A program made the translations under genes and the position numbers. A model generated the notes under the pieces. That model saw only the letters and a list, made by a program, of their open reading frames with translations, did no database searches and was not told the DNA's origin. A stretch of 64,000 nt of DNA. Source: an uncultured Winogradskyella sp. Its GTDB lineage: Bacteria; Bacteroidota; Bacteroidia; Flavobacteriales; Flavobacteriaceae. The DNA is taken from positions 1,297,596 through 1,361,595 of the forward strand of contig NZ_CANMCZ010000001.1 in NCBI RefSeq assembly GCF_947496485.1, read 5' to 3'. Below, piece after piece: positions 33,510-55,989 of the stretch. How positions within the stretch are numbered: the first letter of the stretch is position 1; each line of letters begins with the position of its first letter.

Positions 33510-33525
33510 TGTTTCACGTGGAACA
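33510..33525. other. parS-like centromere site 1
   Basis: TGTTTCACGTGGAACA differs from the widely conserved ParB-binding consensus TGTTTCACGTGAAACA at one base. It lies in the short gap between mnmG and the methyltransferase gene, seven bases beyond the mnmG stop. ParB binding is inferred from the match only. Confidence 0.65.
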
Positions 33526-33532
33526 TTTAAGT

Positions 33533-35404
33533 TTATCTACCTAAATAAACCAATAAAACAGAAATATCATTTGGTGAAACACCACTGATTCTAGAAGCCT
33601 GAGAAATAGTAACAGGCTTAATTTCGGTTAACTTCAGCCTTGCCTCCATGCTCATAGATTTTAGTTTATGGTAATCGAAGTCGGCTGGTATCTTTAAATT
33701 CTCAAGTCGATTTAGTTTATCCGCATTGTTCTTTTCCTTCTCAATGTAGCCGGCATATTTTACTTGAATTTCCGTTTGCTCAATGACTTCGGAATCTAAT
33801 TTATTAGTTTGAATATAATTCTCAACAGCCTTAAATTTCCGAACATCATCTGTTGTGATATTTGGTCTTGCAAACAACTTAAACATCTTGTCTTGTTGTT
33901 TTACTGGAGATGAATTTTTAGACTCTAAAACAGGGTTTGCCTCTTCTGGCTTTACACTAGTGTCTTTAAAAAACTGCACAAACGCATCAGACTTTGATTG
34001 TTTTTCCTCCATTCGTTTTAAGCGTTTTTCAGAAGCTAAACCAATTTTATATCCTTTAGGTGTTAATCTAAAATCAGCATTATCTTGTCTTAACAAGGTT
34101 CTATATTCAGCTCGAGATGTAAACATTCTGTATGGCTCTTCTGTTCCTTTAGTGATTAAATCATCAATCAAAACACCTATATATGCTTCATCCCTCTGTA
34201 GCGTGAAAACTTCTTTGTCTTGAACTTGCAAACTTGCATTTATTCCAGCCATCAAACCTTGAGATGCAGCTTCTTCATAACCTGTTGTTCCGTTAATTTG
34301 TCCAGCAAAAAACAATCCTTCAACCAATTTTGTTTCTAGCGTATGCTTTAATTGTGTTGGCGGAAAATAATCGTATTCTATAGCATATCCTGGCCTAAAG
34401 AATTTTACGTTTTCAAAACCAACAACTGAACGTAAAGCTTTAAACTGAACATCCTCTGGAAGTGATGTGGAAAACCCATTTACATAAACCTCAACAGTAT
34501 TCCAACCTTCTGGCTCTACAAATAGTTGATGTCTGTCTTTGTCTGCAAAACGATTAATCTTATCTTCAATCGATGGGCAATATCGTGGCCCAACACTTTT
34601 AATTCTACCATTAAACATTGGTGAGCGATCAAAGCCTTCTCGTAGCAAATCATGAACATGTTCGCTTGTATATGTCATATGACAAGAGCGTTGTTCTTTA
34701 AGTGCGCTCGTAACATCTAAGTATGAAAACTTCTCTGGGTTTTCATCCCCTGGCTGTTCAATCATTTTAGAATAATCTAATGACCTTCCATCAACTCTTG
34801 GCGGTGTTCCAGTTTTCATTCTACCAGAGTCAAACCCAAGATTAACCAATTGTTCCGTGATTCCAGTTGCCGCTCTTTCACCAGCCCTTCCACCACCAAA
34901 ATTTTTATCCCCTATATGAATTAAACCATTCAAGAAAGTCCCATTCGTTAGGACAACAGTTCTTGATTTAACCTCAATACCAAGTGATGTTTTTACACCC
35001 ACTACTTTATTGTTTTCAACGATTAAACCCGAAACCATTTCTTGATAGAAATCGAGATTAGGTGTGCCCTCTAAAAGCAATCTCCAATCTTCAGCAAAAC
35101 GCATTCTGTCGGATTGCACTCTAGGACTCCACATCGCAGGTCCTTTTGACTTATTGAGCATCTTAAATTGAATCGCAGAGGTGTCAGAAACAATCCCGCT
35201 ATATCCGCCAAGCGCATCAATCTCTCTAACAATCTGACCTTTCGCAATTCCACCCATTGCTGGATTGCAAGACATCTGCGCAATGTTTTGAAGATTCATT
35301 GTAATTAACAATGTCTTACTTCCCATATTTGCAGCCGCAGCCGCAGCCTCGCTTCCTGCGTGGCCAGCACCAACCACTATAACATCATAAACATCGTTAA
35401 ACAT
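33533..35404 (-). CDS. mnmG: tRNA uridine-5-carboxymethylaminomethyl modification enzyme MnmG
   Basis: With MnmE it installs the carboxymethylaminomethyl group on U34 of certain tRNAs, using FAD. The 623 residues are full length. FAD binding is shown by VIVVGAGHAGSEAAAAAANM at the start, the conserved SCNPAMGGIAKGQIVREIDA follows at about 45-64, GTFLNGLIHIG near 155, and FAGQINGTTGYEEAASQGLM near 375. The C-terminal helical MnmE/tRNA-binding domain is intact. The gene is bracketed by two parS-like sites. Confidence 0.97.
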   Translation of the reverse strand: MFNDVYDVIVVGAGHAGSEAAAAAANMGSKTLLITMNLQNIAQMSCNPAMGGIAKGQIVREIDALGGYSGIVSDTSAIQFKMLNKSKGPAMWSPRVQSDRMRFAEDWRLLLEGTPNLDFYQEMVSGLIVENNKVVGVKTSLGIEVKSRTVVLTNGTFLNGLIHIGDKNFGGGRAGERAATGITEQLVNLGFDSGRMKTGTPPRVDGRSLDYSKMIEQPGDENPEKFSYLDVTSALKEQRSCHMTYTSEHVHDLLREGFDRSPMFNGRIKSVGPRYCPSIEDKINRFADKDRHQLFVEPEGWNTVEVYVNGFSTSLPEDVQFKALRSVVGFENVKFFRPGYAIEYDYFPPTQLKHTLETKLVEGLFFAGQINGTTGYEEAASQGLMAGINASLQVQDKEVFTLQRDEAYIGVLIDDLITKGTEEPYRMFTSRAEYRTLLRQDNADFRLTPKGYKIGLASEKRLKRMEEKQSKSDAFVQFFKDTSVKPEEANPVLESKNSSPVKQQDKMFKLFARPNITTDDVRKFKAVENYIQTNKLDSEVIEQTEIQVKYAGYIEKEKNNADKLNRLENLKIPADFDYHKLKSMSMEARLKLTEIKPVTISQASRISGVSPNDISVLLVYLGR

Positions 35405-35419
35405 AATTCATTTCCATTT

Positions 35420-35435
35420 TGTTCCACGTGGAACA
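35420..35435. other. parS-like centromere site 2
   Basis: TGTTCCACGTGGAACA is a perfect 16-bp palindrome, extended to 18 bp by flanking T and A, and matches the G/C-rich form of ParB sites seen in several phyla. It lies 15 bases upstream of the mnmG start, so it could also affect mnmG expression. Confidence 0.7.
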
Positions 35436-50154: not shown

Positions 50155-50210
50155 GTAAACTTATGGTTTACACAAATGTAATAAAACCAAATAAGAATTT
50201 ACAGATGTAT

Positions 50211-50510
50211 TTAAACAGCAACTTTTACTGCGGTTCCTGTTACAGAAACTATAGGATAGTTACTGGTTGTAAATTCAACTTCCACCTTAATTCCTACAAC
50301 TGCATTTGCCTTAAGTTTCGAAGCATTATCTCTTAAATTTTGAAACGCTTCTTCTTTTATAGTTTCTATGCTGCCCTGTATTTTAGTATAGTATTTGGAC
50401 ATACTAAATCCCATAGCTAAGGTTTCTTTATTAATAGCTACGCCAGTAACAATACCTAAATAATCAATTATCTTATAACCTTCTATTGAATTTGTAGTTG
50501 TTAATATCAC
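50211..50510 (-). CDS. YbjQ/DUF74 family protein
   Basis: A 99-residue protein of the YbjQ (heavy-metal-binding domain) family. It has TTTNSIEGYKIIDYLGIVTG at the start and LKANAVVGIKVEVEFTT, VSVTGTAVKV at the end; these proteins form pentameric rings of unknown role, and metal binding is not established. The start is GTG at 50510, overlapping the preceding zinc-ribbon gene's stop by four bases (GTGA), so the two are translationally coupled. Confidence 0.88.
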   Translation of the reverse strand: MILTTTNSIEGYKIIDYLGIVTGVAINKETLAMGFSMSKYYTKIQGSIETIKEEAFQNLRDNASKLKANAVVGIKVEVEFTTSNYPIVSVTGTAVKVAV

Positions 50511-50758
50511 AGTGATTTATTTTTTAGATGTGCTTCCCATAGGTCTTGTGGGTTGTTTACAGATAATTCAACTTTACCACAAGAGCCACAGATTTTAGCT
50601 TTAAGTGCTCCTTTTTCAAATTTATTAAAAATTATATTATCTGTTTTTTGAATATGCACAGATAAATCTTTGCGCTGGTTACCATGTGCAAAATCTACAA
50701 TTTTAACATCTTGCATAATTTTATTGGATCCACAAGCATTACAGGTATCTCTTTCCAT
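50507..50758 (-). CDS. Small zinc-ribbon protein
   Basis: An 83-residue protein with two Cys pairs: CNACGSNK at residues 6-13 and CGSCGKVEL near 58-66, likely a single zinc ribbon. The middle (MQDVKIVDFAHGNQRKDLSV) is beta-rich. No family is recognised. It is coupled by a four-base overlap to a YbjQ-like gene, suggesting a shared function. The ATG start is at 50758. Confidence 0.75.
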   Translation of the reverse strand: MERDTCNACGSNKIMQDVKIVDFAHGNQRKDLSVHIQKTDNIIFNKFEKGALKAKICGSCGKVELSVNNPQDLWEAHLKNKSL

Positions 50759-50892
50759 AATTTAATATTTAAATTATTAGAGTGTAATTATTGAAAATTG
50801 TTACAAATTTTAAAAGCTTTTGTTTTGCTATAACAGATTATTCATTTATAATTCGAATACGCTTAGTCTGACAGTTTAGCATAACATAATAT

Positions 50893-53094
50893 TTAATCTT
50901 CACTTGGCTTTCCAACCATATAGAAATCTAAATGTTTTTTCACTAAATCTGTATTTTTCACTTTTACGATAACCTCATCTCCAAGTTGATATGTTGTTTC
51001 TGTTTTTCTTCCAACCATAGCATATTGATCTTGGTCAAACTGGTAATGATCATCTTTCATATCTCTTACACTTACCATACCTTCACATTTATTAGATATA
51101 ATTTCTACATAAATTCCCCAATCTGTTACGCCTGAAATCACCCCTAAAAATTCCTCATCTTGGTGATCTTGCATAAAGCGAATTTGCATGTATTTGATAG
51201 AATCGCGCTCTGCTTTAGTGGCAAGGTATTCCATATTACTAGAGTGTTTACATTTATCCTCGTAAATATCTTCGTTAGCGGATTTTTCTCCATCAAGATA
51301 TTGTTGTAATAAGCGATGTGCCATTACATCTGGATAACGCCTAATTGGTGATGTAAAATGACTGTAATAATCGAAAGCTAAACCATAATGTCCTATGTTA
51401 TGAGTAGTATACTCTGCTTTAGACATCGTCCTAATCGTTAGTGTATCTACTAAATTCTGTTCTTTCTTTCCTACAACATCTTTAAGTAAATTATTTAAAG
51501 ATGATGCCACACTTCCTTTATCTCTAAAGTTAAGTTTGTGTCCAAAACGACTTACAACAGTTTGTAACTGAGCTAGCTTTGACTCATCTGGCTCATCGTG
51601 CACACGATATACAAATGTTTTTTGTGGTTTTTGCTTACCAACGAATTCAGATACTTTTCGGTTAGCTAATAACATAAATTCTTCAATCAGTTTATTAGCA
51701 TCTTTACTGGTTTTAAAAAATACTCCAACAGGATTTGCTTCTTCATCTAAATTGAATTTTACCTCCACCTTATCGAAAGAAATCGCTCCTTCTCGCATAC
51801 GTTGTGAACGCATTTTTTTAGCGAGTTCATCCATTTTTAGAATAGCATCAGCTATGGTCTGATCTGTTTTGTAAGCTTTTCCTGTTAATGAAACTTCTTG
51901 TGGAATTTCATTAGTTTTTGATTCTATTACAGCTTGTGCTTCTTCATAAGCAAAACGTGCGTCAGAATAGGTTACAGTTCTACCGAACCATTCGTTTTTA
52001 ATTTCACACTTGTCATTCATTTGAAACACAGCAGAAAAAGTATACTTCTCTTCATGCGGACGTAGTGAACATGCTCCATTAGATAAACGCTCTGGTAACA
52101 TTGGTACCACACGATCTACTAAATAAATAGAAGTAGCACGCTCATAAGCCTCATCATCTAAAACGGTTCCTGGTTGTACATAATGCGATACATCAGCAAT
52201 ATGAATTCCTATTTCATATAGACCATTATCTAATACTGTAAACGATAAGGCATCATCAAAATCTTTAGCATCTTTAGGATCTATAGTAAAGGTTAAATCT
52301 TTGCGCATATCTCGGCGCTTAGCAATTTCTTCTGGTTTTATTGATATATCTAAGTTATTAGCATACGTTTCTACATCGTGAGGAAAATCCATAGGTAAGC
52401 CATACTCTGCCATAATAGAATTAATCTCTGTACTATGATCTCCAGGTTTTCCTAAAACTTCTAAAACCTTACCATAAGGTGAGTCTGCCTTTTCTGGCCA
52501 ATCGGTCAATGATACTAAAACCTTATCACCATCTTCAGCTTTTTTAGTTTTATTAATGGGTACAAAAATATCTTTGTACATCTTAGAACTATCTGGAACT
52601 ACAAAAGCAAAGTTCTTTTTGTCTTGAATTTGAATCGTACCTACATATTCTGTTTTTGCACGCTTAATAATATTTGTAATTTCACCTTCTTGTTTTCCTC
52701 TTCGTTTACGTCTGTAGGCATAAAATTCTACTTCGTCACCGTCTAAAGCTTTATTAATATTATTAGATGCTATAAATACGTCTTCTTCAAAATCGTCTGA
52801 AATAATATAACCATTTCCTTTAGAGGAAAGGTCTAAAATACCTGTATGGTATTCTGTATTAACTATCGCTTTAAACTTGCCGCGTTCAACTTCTTCTATC
52901 TCTTGCTTCGCTTTGAGTTGCTGAAGTTTTTTTATAATCTGGTTGCGGCTACTAGCATCATTAACACCAAGTTTAGCAGCAATTTGTTTATAGTTAAAGG
53001 ATTGGTTTCTGTCTTTTTTTAATATACTTAAGATTGTATTTGTAAGGTTGGAAATCTTATTATTTGATGATCTCCTTTTTTTCTTTTTTGTCAT
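50893..53094 (-). CDS. rnr: Ribonuclease R
   Basis: Processive 3'-to-5' exoribonuclease that degrades structured RNA. The 733-residue protein has an N-terminal winged-helix-like segment (NYKQIAAKLGVNDASSRNQI), cold-shock domains, the RNB catalytic core with LTFTIDPKDAKDFDDALSF (Asp cluster binding Mg) near residue 270, HYGLAFDYYSHFTSPIRRYP near 570, and a C-terminal S1 domain (FLGVISGVTDWGIYVEI). It is full length and stands alone. Confidence 0.96.
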   Translation of the reverse strand: MTKKKKRRSSNNKISNLTNTILSILKKDRNQSFNYKQIAAKLGVNDASSRNQIIKKLQQLKAKQEIEEVERGKFKAIVNTEYHTGILDLSSKGNGYIISDDFEEDVFIASNNINKALDGDEVEFYAYRRKRRGKQEGEITNIIKRAKTEYVGTIQIQDKKNFAFVVPDSSKMYKDIFVPINKTKKAEDGDKVLVSLTDWPEKADSPYGKVLEVLGKPGDHSTEINSIMAEYGLPMDFPHDVETYANNLDISIKPEEIAKRRDMRKDLTFTIDPKDAKDFDDALSFTVLDNGLYEIGIHIADVSHYVQPGTVLDDEAYERATSIYLVDRVVPMLPERLSNGACSLRPHEEKYTFSAVFQMNDKCEIKNEWFGRTVTYSDARFAYEEAQAVIESKTNEIPQEVSLTGKAYKTDQTIADAILKMDELAKKMRSQRMREGAISFDKVEVKFNLDEEANPVGVFFKTSKDANKLIEEFMLLANRKVSEFVGKQKPQKTFVYRVHDEPDESKLAQLQTVVSRFGHKLNFRDKGSVASSLNNLLKDVVGKKEQNLVDTLTIRTMSKAEYTTHNIGHYGLAFDYYSHFTSPIRRYPDVMAHRLLQQYLDGEKSANEDIYEDKCKHSSNMEYLATKAERDSIKYMQIRFMQDHQDEEFLGVISGVTDWGIYVEIISNKCEGMVSVRDMKDDHYQFDQDQYAMVGRKTETTYQLGDEVIVKVKNTDLVKKHLDFYMVGKPSED

Positions 53095-53286: not shown

Positions 53287-54951
53287 CTATTCTATAATCA
53301 ACTTTTTAGAGCCTTTTCCTTTATTAGTTTCAATCTGAACAACATATAATCCAGCTGCTAATTTTGAAGAATTTATAGTGGTTTCTTTCGATGTTAATAC
53401 TAATTGACCTAGATTATTATAAATACTTGCATTCCTTAGTTCTGCAGTAGTGTTTAATTGAATAGTAAATTGATTTTTAGCTGGATTTGGATAGAAGTTA
53501 AAACTAAAAATATCATTCTCAGTAATATTTAAATTAACCTGATCTATAATAGTCTGGATTTCTGAAGCTGTTGGATTATATTCATTTATAAAAATACCAT
53601 TATCTAAAGCGATACTATAATTAATACCTTCAATTGCACCACTTACTCCATTAATACTATTTAATTGATTTGCAGTAATATTAACTTCATTATTATTACC
53701 AGTAATATCTTCAATTACTTCTAATAATACTTCTATACTAAAAACACGAACATGACCAGATCTAATACCATTTGCATTATCATTACCTGTAGCTCCAATA
53801 GCAACAATACTGCCATTTGAGGATAAGCCTACTGACCGACCTGACAAATCATATTCTGCTTCACCATGTATATCTGGTCCTATCTGAACCCAATTATCTG
53901 ATTCATTCTTATAAATTCGTACAATGCCAGATGAACCATTCCAAATAGGATTATCATATGTTCCACCAATAGCAATAAGGTTACCTTCTGAGGATAAGCT
54001 TATAGAATAACCAAAATGGTCTCTTTCTAATTGACCATCTATATCTGAACCAACTTGAACCCAATTACCTGATTCATTCTTATAAATTCGTACATGACCA
54101 GAATTATAACCATTACCATCATTTTGCTCAGCACCTATAGCTATAATACTGCCGTCTGATGATAAACTTACTGACCAACCAGATCTATCAAAAAGATTCT
54201 CGCCGTCTATATCCGAACCTATCTGAACCCAATTACCAGATATATTTCTATAAACTCGCACATGACCTGGATTAGTTCCTGAATGTAATCCATAAGCATC
54301 ATTGTGAATTGCCCCAATAGCAACAATACTGCCGTCGGAAGACAAGCTTACTGAATGTCCTGACCAATCACCAGCTGCTTCTCCGTCTATATCACCTCCT
54401 AACTGCGTCCAAACATTGTTTTGGTATTTATACACACGTACGTGACCTGAAGCATTTCCATTTCCGTTATTACTTCTAGCTCCAATAGCAACAATACTTC
54501 CATTAAAAGATAAACTTAATGAGATTCCTGAGCCGTCGTAAAAAGATTCTCCACTTATATTTGAACCAATCTGAACCCAATTATTAGATTGATTCTCATA
54601 GATACTTACATGACCTGAATCTAAACCATTAGCATCACTATTAACAGCACCAATAGCTACAATCCTTCCATCTGAAGACAAACTTACTGAATAACCAAAC
54701 CAACCGCCTGTACCATCAATATCTGAACCTATCTGAACCCAGTTACCTGATTCATTTTTATAAACACGTACATGACCAGAGAAATTATTATTTTGTACAG
54801 AGCTAATTGCTACAATATTGCCATCAGAAGATAAACTTATTGAATGCCCAGAACGATCTTCTGCAGTTTCTCCATCAATATCTTGTCCTATTTGTATTTG
54901 ACTAAAGCTTACAGAAGGAATTAAAATTAATACAAGCAATAGTTGTTTCAT
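53287..54951 (-). CDS. T9SS type A sorted surface protein with beta-propeller-like repeats
   Basis: A 554-residue secreted protein. A signal peptide (LLLVLILIPSVSFSQ) is followed by seven repeats of about 55 residues, each of the form (V)QIGSDIDGE then GxSVSLSSDGSIVAIGA then SGHVRVYKNESGNW, which resemble FG-GAP/integrin-type propeller blades. The C-terminal about 75 residues, from FNFYPNPAKNQFTIQL to KGSKKLIIE, are a type A sorting domain for type IX secretion to the cell surface. Near-identical repeats at DNA level may mediate copy-number change. It borders the long non-coding region to the right. Confidence 0.9.
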   Translation of the reverse strand: MKQLLLVLILIPSVSFSQIQIGQDIDGETAEDRSGHSISLSSDGNIVAISSVQNNNFSGHVRVYKNESGNWVQIGSDIDGTGGWFGYSVSLSSDGRIVAIGAVNSDANGLDSGHVSIYENQSNNWVQIGSNISGESFYDGSGISLSLSFNGSIVAIGARSNNGNGNASGHVRVYKYQNNVWTQLGGDIDGEAAGDWSGHSVSLSSDGSIVAIGAIHNDAYGLHSGTNPGHVRVYRNISGNWVQIGSDIDGENLFDRSGWSVSLSSDGSIIAIGAEQNDGNGYNSGHVRIYKNESGNWVQVGSDIDGQLERDHFGYSISLSSEGNLIAIGGTYDNPIWNGSSGIVRIYKNESDNWVQIGPDIHGEAEYDLSGRSVGLSSNGSIVAIGATGNDNANGIRSGHVRVFSIEVLLEVIEDITGNNNEVNITANQLNSINGVSGAIEGINYSIALDNGIFINEYNPTASEIQTIIDQVNLNITENDIFSFNFYPNPAKNQFTIQLNTTAELRNASIYNNLGQLVLTSKETTINSSKLAAGLYVVQIETNKGKGSKKLIIE

Positions 54952-55554
54952 AACAGCTGATTATTAAAGACTTATATTACAATATAAAAAATAAAAACTT
55001 AACAATTAAATGATTACGATAACCTTCATTTAAAATAACATAAAATACACTTATCAACACATATATACATATCATCATTTTTCTTTTAAAATTTTAAAAA
55101 TAAAATGATGGTTATTATAGTCTGTTAATAGTTGCTATAACTTTTTTGAATTTTGTTTTGAGAAGTTAGTTATCAGATTTACTTCATATATAGTTAACAT
55201 TAGTTTTTTATTTAACTGCTTCATTTTAAAGGATATTTAATATTCTATACACAGTTGTTAATAACCGTTGTTAATAGAATTAACTGATATGTTTTTTATA
55301 AAAAACTGTTCATTTCTATATAAAGTCTGTTTATAAAATCACTCCAAAAAAAGGATTAAAAAATTAGGATAAATGAAATTGAATCTGGTTTGTAAAAATT
55401 ATGATATAAACCTAATTTTAGTTTTAAAGATTTGTAAACAGTTATTAACAAGTAATGAGTATAGCTATTAACCGACTTTTATTATTTGTAACTTTGTAAT
55501 TGTAAAATTAATAAGATTTCCGTGTACACGGAAACGATTTAAAATATTAAATAG
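54952..55554. other. Candidate chromosomal origin region (oriC), gene-free
   Basis: The only stretch above 300 bases without a gene; no ORF or RNA is seen in it. It is extremely AT-rich. DnaA-box-like 9-mers occur repeatedly: TTATCAACA (55051-55059), TGTTAATAG (55123-55131), TGTTAATAA (55256-55264), TGTTAATAG (55269-55277), TGTTTATAA (55328-55336), TTATTAACA (55442-55450) and CTATTAACC (55465-55473), all close to TTATTAACA or its complement. The right end has an 18-bp palindrome. Left-side genes run mostly away from it on the minus strand, and parS-like sites lie 20 kb to the left. Origin function is inferred. Confidence 0.5.
55517..55534. promoter_or_regulatory. Perfect 18-bp palindrome upstream of rpiB
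   Basis: TTTCCGTGTACACGGAAA reads the same on both strands with no spacer, 20 bases before the rpiB ATG. Such a site suits a dimeric DNA-binding protein. It could be an operator for the rpiB operon or part of the adjacent candidate origin. Confidence 0.6.
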
Positions 55555-55989
55555 ATGACAATTTCAATAGGAAACGATCACGCTGGTCCAGATTACAAAC
55601 AAGCAATACTAAAACACTTAGAATCTAAAGGACATTCGATAACAAATTATGGAACTGATACTTTAGATAGTGTGGATTATCCAGATTTTGTGCATCCTGT
55701 TGCTAAAGATGTTGATGACAATAAAGTAGATTTTGGTATATTAATTTGTGGTAGTGCTAATGGTGTGGCTATGACGGCAAATAAATACCAAAACGTTAGA
55801 GCTGGTGTGTGTTGGACGAGCGAGATTACAGAATTAACGCGTCTGCATAATAATGCAAATATTATTTGTATTCCAGCGCGTTTTACTTCTATACCTCAAG
55901 CTATAAAAATGGTGGATACTTTTTTAGAAACCAAATTTGAAGGTGGACGTCATCAAAACCGTGTAGATAAGATTCCGGTATCATGTTAA
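55555..55989 (+). CDS. rpiB: Ribose-5-phosphate isomerase B
   Basis: Interconverts ribose-5-phosphate and ribulose-5-phosphate in the pentose phosphate pathway. The 144-residue protein has ISIGNDHAGPDYKQAILKHL at its N-terminus and LICGSANGVAMTANKYQNVR near residue 61, where the Cys is the catalytic base and CGSANG is the anion hole. RpiB, not RpiA, is shown by this fold. The gene starts an apparent three-gene unit (gaps of three and two bases) with a cation transporter and a GNAT enzyme. Confidence 0.96.
   Translation: MTISIGNDHAGPDYKQAILKHLESKGHSITNYGTDTLDSVDYPDFVHPVAKDVDDNKVDFGILICGSANGVAMTANKYQNVRAGVCWTSEITELTRLHNNANIICIPARFTSIPQAIKMVDTFLETKFEGGRHQNRVDKIPVSC

Follow-up and report, generated by a model that had tools for sequence, protein, structure and literature searches.

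A conserved AT-rich intergenic element beside rpiB is the probable chromosomal replication origin of a Winogradskyella species

Introduction

Where does the chromosome of a Winogradskyella species start its replication? The question is raised by an intergenic gap of 603 bp (positions 54952-55554) with no open reading frame (ORF) of at least 50 aa, lying in a window of 64,000 nucleotides which was analysed as a whole (bases 1297596-1361595 of contig 1) and which belongs to a 4.11-Mb genome in 33 contigs. Winogradskyella is the label of the seven named relatives closest by rpiB, and the genus was assigned on that ground. In a preliminary description of the window this gap was put forward as a candidate replication origin not adjacent to dnaA. 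Published genomes of the family have been rotated to dnaA, which here lies far from the gap, or have had their origin called at mnmG, and a correct origin is needed for coverage-based growth-rate estimates, origin plasmids and skew studies. According to the available text of two reports, oriC of Mariniflexile and Algorimicrobium was placed at mnmG by Ori-Finder 2022 in agreement with skew (PMC11278836, PMC12843772), and in the Mariniflexile genome dnaA did not fit (PMC11278836). An origin adjacent to rpiB was not found for Flavobacteriaceae in the titles and opening parts of abstracts among the literature matches listed, and DoriC may list the site.

The intergenic gap and its conservation

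The features of the locus are collected in Table 1. The gap was initially described as strongly AT-rich and as the longest gene-free stretch of the window. The former is borne out by an AT content of 79.8% vs 67.8% for the window, whose highest-AT 400 bp (81%) also lie inside the gap; the latter is a fair statement, because the longer stretch without 100-aa ORFs at 50155-50892 carries ORFs of 99 and 83 aa. The strand bias expected around an origin holds on one side: to the left, ORFs of at least 100 aa occupy 43.2 kb on the minus strand and 8.0 kb on the plus strand, but to the right the totals are 4.8 kb plus and 3.3 kb minus, followed in the next 20 kb by 6.9 kb plus and 10.1 kb minus, so that a clear bias is absent on that side.

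Table 1. Features of the window around the candidate origin (mismatches are counted against TTATTAACA)
Feature	Position	Strand	Remark
parS site TGTTTCACGTGGAACA	33510..33525		exact match
mnmG (gidA)	33533..35404	-	between both parS sites
parS site TGTTCCACGTGGAACA	35420..35435		exact match
rnr (ribonuclease R)	50893..53094	-	flanks the element on the left in most loci
FG-GAP repeat protein with T9SS sorting tail	53287..54951	-	between rnr and the element
Intergenic gap with candidate oriC	54952..55554		conserved part about 55051-55450
DnaA box 1, TTATCAACA	55051..55059	+	at most one mismatch in 44/51 relatives
AT-rich tract, probable DNA unwinding element	55060..55105		between boxes 1 and 2; conserved
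Period-3 tract TGA-TGG-TTA-TTA-TAG, DnaA-trio-like	55106..55120	+	beside box 2
DnaA box 2, CTATTAACA	55123..55131	-	adjoins AT tract; at most one mismatch in 48/51 relatives
Near-invariant TATAACTTTTT	55136..55146		beside box 2; holds the top-scoring 9-mers of the alignment
Variant box TAGTTAACA	55191..55199	+	kept as TAGTTAACA in 37/52 elements
Variant box CTATACACA	55245..55253	+	at most one mismatch in 33/51 relatives
DnaA box TTATTAACA	55256..55264	-	at most one mismatch in 47/51 relatives
DnaA box CTATTAACA	55269..55277	-	at most one mismatch in 37/51 relatives
DnaA box TTATTAACA	55442..55450	+	at most one mismatch in 48/51 relatives
rpiB	55555..55989	+	usual right neighbour of the element

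When the gap was used as a DNA query, a match was obtained in 59 of 60 genomes of the genus, own genome included (best E at most 1.3e-17), and in all 52 with a completeness of 90% or more and a contamination of 5% or less; the one genome without a match (G031) is 78% complete. Among the matches listed for the own genome there is a single full one, the others being of 38 and 25 bp, and the element thus appears once per chromosome and is conserved among relatives. Its wider distribution was followed in 80 loci of rpiB relatives, labelled mostly as Flavobacteriaceae or its genera. The core, consisting of box 1, the AT tract, the period-3 tract, box 2 and TATAACTTTTT, could be aligned in 74 of these loci and in the own sequence, with L140, L202, L208 and L209 excluded for having no match and L195 and L212 for too partial a match; BLAST to the element left 6 of the 80 loci without a match. 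Whole-genome searches returned a full element in the genome of L140 (about 8 kb from rpiB, if on the same contig), just 57 and 44 bp in the genomes of L195 and L212, respectively, and no match in that of L208.

The surroundings are less constant than the element. Of 74 loci with an element match, 70 have rnr on its left side, encoded by the minus strand, and the other four showed no rnr on that side. The distance to rpiB is at most 500 bp in 57 loci, 501-1000 bp in nine and more than 1000 bp in eight, one of the last (L212) being a weak 44-bp match. In G004 about 12 kb separate the element from rpiB, and in G010 a gene for a T9SS-cargo-like protein, recognised by eye, stands between them. Neighbouring genes have been gained or lost on both sides while the element stays. 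Genes of the T9SS-cargo type occur on either side of it depending on the species (window 53287-54951; L265 6912-8282; G004:C1 810055-825093), and G004 holds, among the matches listed, a second partial copy of the core at 824991-825093.

DnaA boxes and the core of the element

The six 9-mers resembling a DnaA box that had been reported in the gap all differ from TTATTAACA at no more than one base (55051, 55123, 55256, 55269, 55328 and 55442), in both orientations as claimed, but the one at 55328 is not conserved (at most one mismatch in just 2 of 46 relatives) and was dropped. Dinucleotide shuffles of the gap contain on average 1.92 such 9-mers and reach six or more in 35 of 2000 cases, so the raw count can be taken as modest evidence for a cluster. 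Across the window there is no excess (82 vs 73.7 expected, with 17 of 100 shuffles reaching 82), and this count, being at chance level, was set aside as a signal in favour of a test for clustering. For the latter a DnaA-box matrix was built from five sites of relatives, with the own sequence excluded, and run over 464 kb, the whole window included (11% of the genome). The gap contains five matches, the best other 600-bp stretch two at the two stricter cuts and three at the loosest, and five matches were reached by 0, 0 and 1 of 5000 gap shuffles at the three cuts (matrix rounded); by scan and shuffles alike, clustered DnaA boxes in the gap exceed chance. The commonness of the 9-mer elsewhere had been proposed as a check on the reading: exact TTATTAACA is not enriched across the genome (151 copies vs 188 for a reversed control), but the cluster is unequalled in the 464 kb scanned.

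The alignment of 52 distinct elements, own included, was made from 59 loci in which 380 bp or more were matched (drawn from 30 loci of the genus and the 80 of rpiB relatives), and the box columns are conserved across it. Box 1 matches TTATCCACA perfectly in 16 of the 75 sequences of the core alignment, and the cluster is thereby linked to the classical DnaA box. The variant boxes are looser, that at 55191 lying within one mismatch of TTATTAACA in just 10 of 49 relatives and the position of that at 55245 reading CTATTAACA in 31 of 52 elements. The best-conserved part of the element, TATAACTTTTT at 55136-55146, is no plain DnaA box and is possibly a low-affinity one.

Judged by its sequence, the gap is intergenic and AT-rich, and one of its boxes adjoins an AT tract. 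The tract at 55060-55105 is probably the DNA unwinding element, and an imperfect palindrome (55073-55110, with a self-inverse match of 89% over 38 bp) falls mostly inside it. Contrary to expectation, nearest-neighbour energy shows DNA elsewhere in the window to be less stable than the core AT tract. Between the tract and box 2, T recurs at intervals of three nucleotides (-17 to -5 before the box) with 96-100% conservation in 75 sequences, giving the consensus 5'-TRA-TGR-TTA-TTA-TAG, in which the remaining positions vary more. This period-3 tract may function in the manner of DnaA-trios. In the own sequence, read by eye, in-phase A is found at -6 and -9, is broken at -12 and returns at -15, -18 and -21, a pattern which AT-rich DNA easily gives by chance.

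GC skew, parS sites and dnaA

GC skew was sampled in twenty 20-kb stretches from each of five one-contig genomes of the genus (unevenly in G034, G036 and G042) and scored with the terminus set opposite. The element scored 0.0651, 0.0366, 0.0277, 0.0431 and 0.0499 where the maxima were 0.0655, 0.0456, 0.0336, 0.0439 and 0.0499, that is 80-100% of the maximum, and 4-9% of positions scored as high or higher. Permuted stretches (5000 per genome, neighbouring stretches being non-independent) reached the element score in fractions of 0 in G034, 0.017 in G042, 0.006 in G036, 0.001 in G055 and 0 in G010. The best-scoring diameter, taken as the first of tied positions, was off by 0.02 Mb in G034, 0.72 in G042, 0.37 in G036, 0.47 in G055 and 0.20 in G010, hence by 0.37-0.72 Mb in three of the five relatives, and the mean profile of all five peaks at the element (0.92). 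At dnaA the score is negative in every one of them. The skew check suggested in the preliminary description therefore puts the element at the dividing line in the five relatives but is ambiguous on the own contig, where skew is about -0.08 to the left, about 0 for some 150 kb rightward and then negative again. With values of -0.06 and -0.09 at 250-350 kb to the right, the cumulative minimum of this contig is not at the element; rearrangement could be the source of the pattern. Two stretches of G000:C1 to the right of the element (1600001-1620000 and 1700001-1720000) combine negative GC skew with a prevalence of minus-strand ORFs, contrary to a simple two-arm pattern.

Two parS-like sites had been noted about 20 kb away, and they prove to be the only exact matches to GTTNCACGTGNAAC in the whole 4.11-Mb genome, both 19.6-21.5 kb left of the element; they bracket mnmG. 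In ten chosen relatives and two further named genomes there are 2-3 such sites per genome, and in all 13 genomes examined (own and these twelve) parS lies in the region of the element, 16.4-27.2 kb from it.

Placement beside dnaA/dnaN is a common but not a defining trait of oriC, and the dnaA part of it is not found here: as anticipated, the own dnaA is elsewhere, on a different contig. The gene was searched in 13 other genomes, four of which carry it on another contig than the element and nine of which (G034, G036, G042, G055, G010, G004, G017, G069 and G070) have both on one long contig. In all nine, with contigs taken as circular, dnaA is removed from the element by 71-84% of half a chromosome, these placements sharing ancestry and not being nine independent cases. 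Upstream of dnaA, boxes were looked for by eye only. The DnaA protein exceeds the NCBIfam DnaA cut-off and reads RDHATVLHAC in eight of eight dnaA loci examined (L001, L256-L262), with alanine in place of the usual threonine; by the register of the shared RDHxTV motif this alanine aligns with E. coli Thr435. That position is listed among base-contact positions in the available text of PMC5043019, where alanine at the equivalent place is reported for some Epsilon- and Deltaproteobacteria. It may be guessed that the alanine is linked to the A at position 6 of the boxes.

Discussion

A conserved non-coding element, conserved box positions, skew in relatives and the proximity of parS are independent lines which agree, and this agreement makes it very probable that the chromosome of the Winogradskyella species has its replication origin (oriC) in the gap, as the preliminary description had proposed. 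Like oriC of E. coli and B. subtilis, it is intergenic and AT-rich, has clustered 9-mers in both orientations and an AT tract beside a box, and is placed in the origin region by skew and parS. Unlike them, it lies away from dnaA, has a box on either side of the AT tract, and most of its boxes read YTATTAACA, position 6 being A instead of the C of TTATCCACA.

An origin at or next to mnmG (33.4-35.5 kb of the window), with the rpiB gap as a secondary DnaA-binding site, would agree with the calls that Ori-Finder 2022 gave for two further members of the Flavobacteriaceae and that their authors found to fit GC skew (PMC11278836, PMC12843772; in the available text of the former, oriC and ter are swapped between figure legend and text), and the sampled skew cannot resolve two sites 20 kb apart. 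It is nonetheless very unlikely, for the gaps flanking mnmG measure just 79 and 83 bp, each with a parS site, and outside the rpiB gap no 600 bp of the 464 kb scanned, mnmG region included, holds more than two strict boxes. The published calls may go back to the status of mnmG as an indicator gene or to origin finders reading parS as degenerate DnaA boxes.

The gap could instead be a DnaA-titration or regulatory site and not a start site, since the evidence on it concerns box content and not melting. In E. coli datA is a site of the titration type. Against such a role, which is highly improbable here, skew in relatives and parS place the gap within the origin region, a box adjoins the conserved AT-rich tract, and a competing box cluster is absent from the scanned 11% of the genome. 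The position of the gap upstream of the divergent genes rpiB and rnr in most loci would suit a conserved leader with a regulatory role, or an ncRNA, of either gene, but the element is kept in the eight loci more than 1 kb from rpiB and in the distant arrangements of G004 and possibly L140, and its DnaA boxes point in both orientations. The sole Rfam match to the gap, at 21.8 bits vs a gathering score of 66 (E 0.88), is below threshold and was taken as chance. A leader or ncRNA is an exceedingly improbable explanation.

If the gap is oriC, DnaA would bind the box cluster at 55051-55450, in which the AT-rich and partly palindromic tract is flanked by boxes 1 and 2 pointing towards each other. 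From its anchor on box 2, DnaA would then extend along the period-3 tract and melt the AT-rich tract, at which helicase would be loaded to start two forks, and ParB on the two parS sites would separate the new origins. The arrangement resembles the basal unwinding system (BUS) with its DnaA-trios, as given in the available text of PMC8287927 and PMC10721633, in having a trinucleotide repeat between AT tract and box, of which the box-proximal 5'-TAG equals a 3'-GAT-5' trio. The BUS rule in the former asks for at least three 3'-NAN-5' units (middle adenine) at most 16 bp from a box. The element differs in that its next units (5'-TTA, TTA, TGR, TRA) mostly lack the in-phase middle adenine and that 2 nt separate its tract from the box. 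It is conceivable, though rather unlikely as a whole, that Flavobacteriaceae have a variant orisome, with position-6-A boxes read by an Ala-for-Thr435 DnaA, an unwinding tract of 5'-TNR units (not classic trios) between facing boxes, and dnaA kept terminus-ward so that its dosage drops relative to oriC in fast growth.

As a kind of element such an origin is ordinary and well located, and its wider interest lies in the published mnmG calls and in the terminus-side dnaA. It would give a marine family an origin that is resolved to the base and open to testing, and a terminus-side dnaA common to several genera bears on the role of oriC-proximal dnaA dosage in initiation control. A similar placement is described for Ornithobacterium hominis, a member of another family (Weeksellaceae), in which dnaA is near the terminus and the origin agrees with skew and read depth according to the available text of PMC10353427; the likeness concerns the placement of dnaA far from the origin.
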